From Allacma fusca (Eukaryota; Arthropoda; Collembola; Symphypleona; Sminthuridae), in contig OX359250.1 of assembly GCA_947179485.1 (NCBI GenBank), forward strand, positions 3,059,661 through 3,123,660: a stretch of 64,000 nucleotides of DNA, read 5' to 3'. The translations under genes and the position numbers were made by a program. A model generated the notes under the pieces. That model did no database searches and was not told the DNA's origin. It saw nothing but the letters and a program-made list of their open reading frames with translations. This document shows positions 1-63,413 of this stretch, in pieces; within the stretch, counting starts at the first letter, position 1; every line of letters begins with the position of its first letter.

Positions 1-183
1 GTTTTTAAATTTAGTATCATTTCCACGCATAGAATTCCAGACCACCTAAGGATACGGCTTCATGATTAGCTCCCTTATAAATATTTGAGTAGATACGCAA
101 AACATGACTTTTTTCAATATACACATATTTGACTGTTGTAAATAGAATTTCCCATAGTTTTTGGGGCCATGTGAGGCACTCAC
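1..183 (-). other. sal: Start of intron 5 of the Spalt/SALL gene
   Basis: Begins with the donor GTGAGT at 183-178 and runs out of the window. Nothing else is seen in it. Confidence 0.85.
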
Positions 184-765
184 CTCTTGAGTTCTTTTCT
201 GTAACACTTCAAGGGTATTAGGTTCTCGAATGATATTTAGATCTCCGTTAGGAGAGAGTATACTAGTCGACGAGGCGCCTGGTGGGAGCCCGGGTGACAA
301 TGGCTGGTTAGGGTCTTGATTTGCACAATTAAGTAGGGAAGCAAAATGTGGATTGAGACCTTCGGAGCCATTGGTGGCATTGACTGTTCCCATGGAGGAA
401 CTCGTCGTACTGTTATTACTATTCGTGTTTGGTTTTGTCGTCTGCTTGAGAGGTGAGAGGCTGTTGGGTTTACTACTACTGCTACTGATATCAGGAGGTT
501 GAGGTGTCGTACTCGTTGAAGGAACTGGACTTGGTGAGTTGGGCGGAGACGAGTCATCATGCTGAACAGAGTTCTGATCACTCTTCGAGACCAACTGCTG
601 CTGAAGATGTTGGAGCAACTGAAGCTGGAGAAGCTGTTGTTGCTGCAGTGTGAACAGGGTTGTTTGAAGTGCGGCTAGTTCTTGAAATGATCCGTTGTTG
701 TTATTTTTTGTGTTCTTCGTCGCATGGTTATTCAGAGCATTCGCAGCAAACTGAGCCATAGCCAC
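184..765 (-). CDS. sal: Spalt/SALL exon 5: glutamine-rich helix and Ser/Pro-rich region
   Basis: A 582-base exon, 194 codons, phase 0 at both ends. The acceptor is GTGTGTTAG before GTG GCT ATG, and the donor is GTGAGT after CAA GAG. It opens VAMAQFAANALNN, continuing the motif from exon 4. At about residues 176-208 of the spliced protein lies a Leu/Gln-rich helix (core TLQQQQLLQLQLLQHLQQQL); in SALL proteins this region mediates homo- and hetero-dimerisation. A long Ser/Pro/Thr-rich stretch follows, then SPGLPPGAS and a final NTLEVLQKRTQE block that I associate with arthropod Spalt proteins just before the first finger pair. The open frame runs past the donor to position 46, but that tail is intron. 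Confidence 0.94.
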
Positions 766-59900: not shown

Positions 59901-61335
59901 ACGTATCTACCATTCTATTGTGAGGGAAGGAAAACTCAAGACAAACTATCAATTAGGACTCACGTGTGCGAACGCCCATGGAGTAACTGTATCATTATAG
60001 GCATCTGTGTCTGATGAGAAATTGTAGAAGATCCAACATAAAACCACAGAAAAAGATAAAAGGTGTACACAAAAGAAAAATCCCGTTGGAGAGAGACGTA
60101 CCAATAAAAAAGGACATATAATTAACCCGAAGAGACATTTTGGCGGGTGTTGTGAAAAGGATAAATTCTCCTTGGATGTAATTATCCCTGAGCATTATGA
60201 TCTCCAGGTATGAGTCCCCCCGTCACTCTCTCCCTAGTATCTCTGTCTTCCGTATATTTTTAACTTAGCTAATTAAAACTATGTTTTGACAAGTCATTAG
60301 CAGCAGGAGTAGGAACGACAGCAAACCAGCCATGGGTTGTTGCAAGTTACGTTGTAAGTTTAGCTCGAGCTTTTTTCCTCAAAATGTCTGCTTCGTAACC
60401 TGAAACCCATTTAGTCCTGTGCATACAGATCCTCACGTATATCTACATATGTACACTCACAATCACACACACACACACAATACTCTCCTCGGAGTCACTC
60501 TCCACGCTCTTCACTCAATGCACAATCTGGTTGGAAAAACCTTACCTAACTCAATCCCATGTGCAAGAAATCAAGGGAAACGGCAGTTTTCTAAACAAAT
60601 TATGCTGCAGCTCTAACTAATTCCCCGTTTCCAAAACTCCTCCACATTGTCAACATAACAGTAGAGACACAGGATCATATAGTAAGTGGAGTGATATATA
60701 TATAATTATCTATATATAGCAATCATTAAATGCTCAAGCCCAGGACTCTGCCTCCTTCTAGATACTAAATACAGTAAGTTCTGTACACACGGAGCATTTG
60801 GTCTCCTCAAAACTTCCTCCAGGCCGGGAGTCCCACTCAAATGAGATCCATAGTCATGTGTGAGGAAATGTATTGATGGGGAGAATGCGAGCGATGATAT
60901 CACTTTTGATAACTGGAGCCATTGGAGGAAAGCAAGGTAAATCCCATTGCATTTATGGAAATCGTTCGTTCCTCCTTCCTTCCTTCCTTCCTCCCAGACT
61001 CGGCTCAAACATGCTCATAGAGCCCAAGAGGACTCAAATGGGTGAGGAAGGCTACAGAGGATGGTTGTTAGCCACTAAAGTCCGAACTGTGTACTGTTTT
61101 ATTTAGAATTTGAAGATAAACAGAGAAGAGGAGGATTGTAGTTGGAGGAAGAGGTCTAGTAAAAGTATATTGTGTATGATAACAGTTGGTTGCGGGGTTG
61201 TAAAATTGATGCTACTGCTACATTCTGGAGGATTCCGATCTTATTTGTAATGTTGTACCGGAGCATAATAATACAGCGGGAATGGACGCGGAAAGCCCTG
61301 TGTATGTGTGTAACTTTTGTGAGTGTGTGTGTGTG

Positions 61336-61371
61336 TAGTGCTGTAATATTGTTCGCATTTTGTTTGTTCTT
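61336..61371 (+). repeat. Left terminal inverted repeat of the hAT-like element
   Basis: Starts TAGTGCTGTAAT and runs into a TTTGTTTGTTC stretch. It pairs with 63326-63359 with a few gaps and mismatches. Confidence 0.65.
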
Positions 61372-61548
61372 TTGTTCAGTTCTTGTTTTTTGAACAAAAC
61401 AAAACAAACAAAATCAGTTTTCGAAAAAACAAAACTAGAACAAAACAAAACCGCGATAAGATAAAACAAAACTATAACAAACAAACCACCACAACAGCGG
61501 GTAATAACCTTTTCAAACTTTGAGTTTGGAAAAGTGCCCAAAAGTAAC

Positions 61549-62405
61549 ATGACCTCAAATCGACGTGAGTGAGTGACAAATAGATACATGACCTCAAATT
61601 GACCTGAAAAGTGACAAATAGATACATGACCTCAAATTGACCTGAAAAGTGACAAATAAATACATGACCTCAAATCGACGTGAGTGAGTCACAAATAGCA
61701 ACATGACCTCAAATTGACGAATTGACCTGAGTGAGTCACAAATAGATACATGACCTCAAATTGACCTGAGAGAGTCACAGATAGTAACATGACCTCAAAT
61801 CGACGTGAGTGAGTCACAAATAGCAACATGACCTCAAATTCACCTGAGTGAGTCACCAATAAATACGTGACCTCAAATTGACCTGAGTGAGTCACAAATA
61901 GATACATGACCTCAAATTGACCTGATTCGCAAAAAATATCAACATGATTTCAAATTCATCTTACAGTATTGAGTCACAGATAGTAACATGACCTCAAATT
62001 GACCTCAGTGAGTTACAACAAGTTCCTTGACCTCAAATTGACCTCAGTGGGTCACAAGAAATTCCATGACCTTAATTTGGCCTCAATGGGTCACAAGAAA
62101 TTCCATGACCTTAATTTGGCCTCAATGGGTCACAAGAAATTCCATGACCTTAATTTGACCTCAGTGGGTTACAAGAAATTCCATGAACTTAATTTGACCT
62201 CAGTGGGTTACAAGAAATTCCATGACCTTTGACCTCAGTGGGTTACAAGAAATTCCATGACCTTTGACCTCAGTGGGTTACAAGAAATTCCATGACCTTT
62301 ATTTGACCTCAGTGGGCTACAAGGAGTTCCTCATTTTTCGATGGGTCATAAGAACTCCCATGACCTTAATTTGACCTTTGTGGGTTATTAGTAGACCCAT
62401 GACCT
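61549..62405. repeat. ~39-bp minisatellite with paired TGACCT half-sites (about 21 units)
   Basis: Units start at 61549, 61588, 61626, 61664, 61703, 61750, 61789, 61828, 61867, 61906, 61944, 61988, 62027, 62066, 62105, 62144, 62183, 62222, 62257, 62292 and 62360; most steps are 38-39 bases. Each begins ATGACC or a close variant. Ten units hold a perfect TGACCT-n5-TGACCT, i.e. a DR5 of AGGTCA on the minus strand. Units 62222 and 62257 are 35 bases long and have TGACCT-T-TGACCT (DR1). Units up to about 62026 have a TGAGTCAC-type tail; later ones have CAGTGGGTTACAAGAAATTC. The array lies inside the TIR element. Any receptor binding is inference; the spacing is read directly. Confidence 0.9.
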
Positions 62406-63325
62406 TACATACACTTTATAATAAATCTCAAATAACATCATAATGACCATTAGGAGCTATTGAAGTGCACGGTTTTATTTACATTTATACTTTGAACCGC
62501 TGGGCTTAAGTAAGGTCAACAAAATCTTTGCACTATTTACAGTTGTTTAAGGCCAATCTAAAGTTATTGAACAACGCGTAACTTAGAATGCCTACTTGAG
62601 GTCAATAGAGTAATTAATTGTTACCTGCTATGACCATAACCTGTACTGATATTAGATGTTTGGGTACATCGGATATTGTAAATGAGAACAATTTCTGTTG
62701 GACACCAGTAATTACTTAGTGCAATGACGTGGATGCTAAATTTTTAACTTGATTTGATCCCAAAATGTTGAAACTAGTCAGACTGTGAGTAGACAGGATG
62801 GCAGAAATAAAAGAGGCCTAAGCAATCCAAAAAAAAACAATAAAGGTAATTAATTCAATCAAGTCTTCGGGCGAACCCAAAACGATGCGTATCGGTAGCA
62901 CTAGGTAAACCCCACCACAATCGTTTGTTCATATATTATGTCTATATATGCGGTCATTTCAGGTCTTGTGGAAGTATGGAATTACATTACACCTTACACT
63001 CCTAGAAACTATCAACAGAAGTTTTAATGATTGTATTAAATAAGAGTTGTAAAGCATATCCGTCAAAAATTAGTTAAAGCCCGTTTTTTTTGGTTTTAAC
63101 GTCCTTTGTGAAGGGACCAAATTTACACGAATCAACTTCGATATGCTCTATTACTAATTTACGACAATCAATTTCACAAATTTCTAACATCTTCTACATC
63201 GGTAGAACAAAACAATATGGATTGTTTTTTGAACAATACGGATTGTTCAAAAAACAAAACAAAACAAAACTCGGTGAACAAAACAAAAGTCAAATTGTTC
63301 TAGTTTTGTTCATTTCCGAAGAGAA

Positions 63326-63359
63326 CAAAACAAAACAAAACGAACAAATTACAGCACTA
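63326..63359 (-). repeat. Right terminal inverted repeat of the hAT-like element
   Basis: Ends ATTACAGCACTA on the plus strand, the complement of the left tip. AACAAAAC-type subterminal copies continue inward to about 63205. Confidence 0.65.
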
Positions 63360-63413
63360 TGTGTGTGTGTGTGTGTGTGTGTGTGAGTGTGTGTGTGTGT
63401 GGGTGGGTGTGTG
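63360..63413. repeat. (TG)n microsatellite at the transposon edge
   Basis: TG run continuing the target of the hAT-like element; its partner is the (GT)n at 61323-61335. Confidence 0.9.

Follow-up and report, generated by a model that had tools for sequence, protein, structure and literature searches.

A hAT-type transposable element family of Allacma fusca disperses a minisatellite containing DR5 nuclear-receptor-like motifs

Close to the end of a 64,000-nucleotide stretch of the genome of the collembolan Allacma fusca (assembly GCA_947179485.1, contig OX359250.1, positions 3,059,661 to 3,123,660 of the forward strand; this whole stretch is the window of the text below), an element with matched inverted tips carries a minisatellite in which the pair AGGTCA-n5-AGGTCA (DR5), a direct repeat of nuclear-receptor type, recurs many times. 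Has selection kept these half-sites, as a first-pass annotation of the sequence considered possible, or have they been copied along with a mobile element?

The window has a 239-aa open frame near its start (46-765, minus strand) for which Pfam gave no match above the cut-off, and C2H2 zinc-finger frames recognized by Pfam are found just before the window, also on the minus strand (stretch L063, 8089-9559). We take these frames to be spalt (SALL). The window appears to be the 5′ region or a long intron of a spalt-like gene, with the element ~60 kb upstream of the 239-aa frame.

The element in the window and its array

A complete non-autonomous hAT-type element of 2,024 bp (61336..63359) occupies part of the final 3 kb of the window, its limits being given by its tips and by full-length copies elsewhere that are 100% identical. 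The left terminal inverted repeat (TAGTGCTGTAAT; 61336..61347, plus strand) pairs with the right one (ATTACAGCACTA; 63348..63359, minus strand) at 12 of 12 positions, and the similarity further inward is imperfect. Tips of hAT elements are short inverted repeats that start with YARNG; those of this element start with TAGTG, in agreement with that motif. Subterminal repeats resembling GAACAAAAC and GTTTTGTTC follow in both orientations on the left (approximately 61354..61480), and repeats of the same kind are found on the right (approximately 63222..63345), where they include a perfect 16-bp hairpin (63222-63257). The interior outside the array (62408..63221) revealed no coding potential. No stop-to-stop frame within the element exceeds 98 aa (the next longest has 94 aa), a Pfam scan of six frames of the element gave no match that reached the cut-off (the best, to DUF1265, had an E value of 0.0061 and scored 17 bits where 25 were required), and Rfam gave 0 matches at gathering scores. 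These data bear out the initial description of matched tips without coding capacity. A search for a second copy within the window found none that was convincing (best E value outside the element, 0.047).

The first-pass annotation also reported identical 8-base flanks. Both flanks do read TGTGTGTG (61328..61335 and 63360..63367), formally an 8-bp target duplication, but each lies within (TG)n microsatellite sequence, so that the length of the duplication is unreadable in this copy. We therefore rejected the TG flanks as proof of an 8-bp duplication. The proof comes from other copies, whose duplications settle the length as 8 bp and exclude a family with TA duplications, which the window copy alone would permit.

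The minisatellite spans 861 bp (61547..62407) and comprises 24 whole or partial units of ~39 bp. Type A units (ACATGACCTCAAATTGACCTGAGTGAGTCACAAATAGAT) fill 61547..61985, type B units (CCATGACCTTAATTTGACCTCAGTGGGTTACAAGAAATT) fill 61986..62357 and include one short unit that lacks half-sites (62329-62357), and a type D unit with a partial unit (CCATGACCTTAATTTGACCTTTGTGGGTTATTAGTAGAC) closes the array at 62358..62407. The number and strand of the DR5 pairs were as first described: the window contains exactly 10 perfect pairs, all on the minus strand and all within the array (61589..61605, 61627..61643, 61751..61767, 61868..61884, 61907..61923, 61989..62005, 62028..62044, 62145..62161, 62293..62309, and 62361..62377). 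Four more pairs have one mismatch, which brings the total to 14, compared with a mean of 0.30 and a largest value of 3 in 100 shuffles of the window. The plus-strand spacers of the perfect pairs differ, as had been noted, with CAAAT in seven, TAATT in two, and TTATT in one. Two units carry an identical 4-base spacer deletion that turns the pair into a DR1 (TGACCT-T-TGACCT; 62223..62235 and 62258..62270, both minus strand). Ten of the 20 near-full units are without a perfect DR5, and the altered half-sites include CGACGT, TCACCT, TGGCCT, TGAACT, and TGATTT, among others. The heptamer TGAGTCA, which we take to be the AP-1 consensus, is present in several type A units; sites for other factors can thus be read into the unit equally easily.

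Dispersed copies and the excess of DR5 pairs

In the genome as a whole (392.7 Mb, 91 contigs), the tip pattern occurred 741 times, compared with 1 occurrence of its reversed control, which corresponds to ~370 elements. The first 100 tip places, all on contig C1, formed 40 pairs with a median length of 1,970 bp. A similarity search with the whole element returned 932 first candidates, and among the 40 that were scored, three copies were 100% identical over 2,024 bp (the window copy, C9:27156689-27158712, and C8:2828433-2830456) and four further copies were 95 to 97% identical over the full length. As the first-pass annotation had considered possible, copies are dispersed, and the family spreads DR5 pairs. 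The tip pattern had 0 matches in viral contigs and in bacterial and archaeal contigs, and the unit-core pattern had 0 matches in viral contigs.

Our sample of the family consisted of 48 genomic stretches and the window, 49 in all, with L062 being a larger version of L027. Left out of it were L018 (the window itself) and L021 (the same as L001); L003, L004, L006, L008, and L052, each replaced by a larger stretch; and L009-L014 and L016, which are not members of the family. A correctly ordered tip pair was present in 39 of the 49 stretches, and in the remaining 10, one or both tips were missing or stood in the wrong order. Every one of the 39 pairs was flanked by an 8-bp duplication (38 identical, 1 with one mismatch), where the pairing of tips itself required no more than one mismatch in the duplication. 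Without the window, this leaves 38 copies, 37 with identical duplications and 1 with one mismatch. Duplications at other sites differ in sequence, for example, AGTGTGAC and AGTGCAGC.

With the orientation of the elements taken from their arrays and the window left out, the 38 duplications yield the consensus nnTRYAnn (T3 in 33, R4 in 36, Y5 in 35, and A6 in 32; all four in 24). The Ac group prefers targets of the form nTnnnnAn, and the Buster group prefers nnnTAnnn. Each of these patterns was fitted by 0 of the 38 duplications (window left out). Target preferences are investigated in the accessible part of PMC3942097 without the Tip group.

In the 39 elements that have a tip pair, the size of the array varies from 9 to 45 near-full units per copy, and the perfect DR5s per copy range from a few up to 29. 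A second subfamily (L005 and L057) has the identical 12-bp tip, other subterminal repeats, and a unit type C such as ACATGACCTCAGATTGACCTTACTGTGTCACTAATAGTC.

Which enzyme could have moved these elements? A 6.2-kb element bounded by the same tips (C1:42522765-42528936) contains a hAT dimerization domain, PF05699 (C1:42525155-42525370, minus strand; E value, 6.4e-10; 47.1 bits), within a 433-aa open frame without stops whose strand is that of the element. When 150 of 860 candidates were scored, 37 PF05699 hits lay on C1, of which this one alone falls within a tip pair (40 pairs; chance expectation, 0.046). The left 150 bp of the window element are 82% identical to the left end of the 6.2-kb relative, and the two have this end, which bears GAACAAAAC-like repeats, in common. 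The first 950 bp of the relative, the part that was read, contain no array; at the place expected from the non-autonomous copies, that relative thus has none. The 8-bp duplications of the other copies, together with a same-tipped long relative that has a hAT dimerization domain, support the original assignment to the hAT superfamily. The shared tips, the strand, and the position of the domain suggest that this putative transposase-bearing relative may mobilize the non-autonomous elements in trans.

At two other places on C1, tips are paired at distances of 12.8 kb (C1:24460714-24473500) and 9.7 kb (C1:13351670-13361401). None of the 150 scored hits puts a hAT domain in either, and these pairs may represent nested insertions or very long arrays, or their tips may be unrelated.

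Perfect DR5 pairs number 5,321 in the genome, compared with 124 for the reversed control (~43-fold). The corresponding counts are 300 versus 107 for DR4 and 428 versus 201 for DR6. Of the first 100 places with a perfect DR5, all within the first 9 Mb of C1, 86 were assigned to the 39-bp arrays of the family and 14 lay elsewhere; 11 of these 14 show the spacer of one or the other of two further dispersed repeats, and of these 11, 8 were read. All eight tip loci in the first 9 Mb of C1 adjoin 39-bp arrays. Since a single transposon family holds most of the perfect DR5s at these places, looking for hormone response elements in this genome by motif would mainly recover this repeat.

The two other dispersed repeats contain TGACCT-n5-TGACCT without the tips described here (L009, L011, and L012; L010, L013, and L016), and their spacers are CAGCT/CATCT and AGCTG. 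Tandem arrays with a 12-bp period on AGGTCAAGTGGA/G yield DR6 spacing (C1:5626020-5626097, C1:16942310-16942363, C1:27299418-27299507, and others).

Half-site variation and the competing readings

We consider it likely that the elements form a recently active, non-autonomous hAT-type family, moved in trans, in which a ~39-bp minisatellite with candidate receptor sites has hitchhiked. The transposase of same-tipped relatives would move the elements. An internal ~39-bp unit that holds two TGACCT hexamers five bases apart would have given rise to an array that grew and shrank through unequal exchange or slippage, and transposition would have copied whole arrays across the genome, mainly for which reason the DR5 count would exceed its control so strongly. 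The sites would then have no receptor-related function.

The first-pass annotation took the survival of the pair in units with different spacers as what selection on the half-sites would give, with recent array expansion as another possible cause. We compared variable columns in near-identical copies, 25 of the 39 elements hand-picked for likeness, with columns skipped where fewer than 70% of the copies had letters. In 18 copies with 98.3 to 100% pairwise identity, 9 of 193 half-site columns were variable, as were 14 of 353 in the rest of the unit, 0 of 85 in the spacer, and 40 of 1,230 outside the array. For 7 window-like copies (98.5 to 100%), the respective figures were 8 of 263, 18 of 483, 1 of 109, and 17 of 1,164. 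Five insertion columns per group, none variable, stand outside the pooled figures, which are 17 of 456 for half-sites compared with 33 of 1,030 for the rest of the unit including the spacer (Fisher P = 0.64) and 57 of 2,394 for the element outside the array (P = 0.11). The spacer was less variable than the half-sites (1 of 194 versus 17 of 456; P = 0.019). In near-identical copies, half-sites are not preferentially kept and vary like the rest of the unit, the outcome that the first-pass annotation had named as refuting its idea.

Expansion is also seen in arrays that lack intact half-sites. In an intact, duplication-flanked element (stretch L002), ~9 copies of a 35-bp derivative unit without half-sites (1870-2189) stand beside DR5 units. 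In L008/L060, where no right tip was found, ~17 units have both half-sites altered and 3 of 23 units are perfect. Together with the equal variation of near-identical copies, these arrays leave the claim that selection keeps the half-sites unsupported.

Comparison between unit types gave a different result. Units were segmented by four type consensi (A to D) chosen from tandem-repeat output, in copies found by searching for DR5 and for similarity to the window element, both of which favor window-like units. Of the 805 near-full units obtained (190 of them distinct), 475 keep a perfect DR5. Across the four consensi, the half-sites show no variation (12 of 12 positions invariant), compared with 11 invariant positions among the 27 others (23 of 39 in total; hypergeometric P = 3.5e-4, with a post hoc mask). 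In each of the six pairwise type comparisons, the half-sites differ at 0 of 12 positions and the rest differs at 7 to 13 of 27 (one-sided P, 0.0025 to 0.058). The proportion of distinct units intact at all 12 half-site positions is 0.558, the highest of 39 mask rotations (next, 0.532; random masks, P = 0.0005), and half-sites required 5.75 parsimony changes per position compared with 8.74 elsewhere (random masks, P = 0.005). Aligning copies had been proposed as the way to see whether half-sites change less than the rest of the unit; recent copies say that they do not, and the unit types, compared post hoc, say that they do. The recent and the older time scales thus disagree.

This conservation could reflect selection on the mobile lineage to retain DR5 receptor sites, for instance if a nuclear receptor gives the element open chromatin or activity in the germline, with individual copies decaying neutrally after insertion. 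The invariant half-sites, the first rank of the DR5 mask, and the many units with a perfect pair all speak for it, and pure drift under-predicts the conservation between types. Moreover, Drosophila EcR-USP activates a yeast reporter through DR5, as well as through ER6, IR0, IR4, DR1, and DR4, according to an available portion of PMC5494300. We nevertheless regard such selection as unlikely. Near-identical copies vary at the half-sites as elsewhere in the unit and less in the spacer, and the transposase-bearing relative is without an array in its first 950 bp. A DR5 mask slid by one base scores 5.58 parsimony changes per position, slightly lower still, and the lowest counts span approximately positions 2 to 20, spacer included; conservation therefore covers a block, of which the two hexamers are only a part. 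In type D, divergence is 0.038 at half-sites versus 0.045 elsewhere. Broken half-sites are also common (CGACGT in 50 + 30 + 20 units and TGGCCT in 52), and both variants occur in the recently moved window element. Because the mask was derived from the very sequences under test, because types A, B, and D occur together in elements and may exchange, and because the copies were partly found through DR5, we treat the signal between types as a lead: it is post hoc and not sharply confined to the half-sites, and other causes are possible.

The extent of this block, beyond the two hexamers and across the spacer, would also suit binding of the unit by the transposase or by some other factor in transposition, in which case the resemblance to nuclear-receptor sites would be coincidental. 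hAT transposases bind subterminal repeats, which counts for such a site. The array, however, is placed asymmetrically, ~210 bp from the left tip and 950 bp from the right tip, and what the window element shares with the transposase-bearing relative is the left end and not the array, which is absent from the first 950 bp of that relative. We give this explanation little credence. That there is no transposon at all, with tips and flanks arranged by chance around a local minisatellite in (TG)n, has practically nothing in its favor beyond the uninformative flanks of the window copy and is refuted by identical copies of full length elsewhere in the genome and by the differing sequences of the 8-bp duplications around other copies.

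Known systems and what the family means

The hitchhiking array in a recently active hAT-type family, the reading that we prefer, has counterparts in several known systems. Like non-autonomous hAT elements and hAT MITEs of insects, of which the BuT2 MITEs (PMC3942097, in part) and mar of Drosophila (PMC3517528, in part) are examples, the family has short inverted tips, 8-bp duplications, non-coding sequence, and recent amplification. Unlike mar and BuT2, its members are ~2 kb long, with an internal minisatellite of ~0.4 to 1.7 kb and the target preference nnTRYAnn. Mobile elements with an internal tandem array include Xmix/Xstir and miDNA4 of Xenopus, the lepidopteran (GTCY)n MITEs, and DINE with its central tandem repeats, and the sections of PMC9659126 available to us make tandem-repeat-bearing non-autonomous elements an already known kind; those elements belong to another superfamily, whereas the unit here contains a perfect AGGTCA DR5. 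Dispersal of direct repeats of nuclear-receptor half-sites by a mobile family is likewise known from Alu with its DR2 retinoic acid response elements (PMC1785376, as far as accessible). In Alu, the repeats are DR2s in a retroelement; here, they are candidate sites in a DNA transposon, with up to 29 perfect DR5s per copy. A search of openly licensed literature for the tip string and one DR5 string had a herpesvirus circRNA paper as its sole match, and a search of the same literature for transposons with receptor sites or minisatellites returned Alu papers, general reviews, and unrelated work, among which the family was not met.

A more far-reaching possibility, which we think quite unlikely, is that the hAT lineage kept its DR5 array as host nuclear receptors help the element, through germline activity or open chromatin, and that its bursts seeded thousands of clustered candidate receptor sites. 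If this is true, the seeded sites, one set of which lies ~60 kb 5′ of spalt-like exons, could rewire hormone responses. The family constitutes a natural series of arrays at numerous loci, both intact and broken, with perfect DR5s numbering from a few to 29, and so opens to direct testing the long-standing question of whether receptor-like sites scattered through a genome have any effect.
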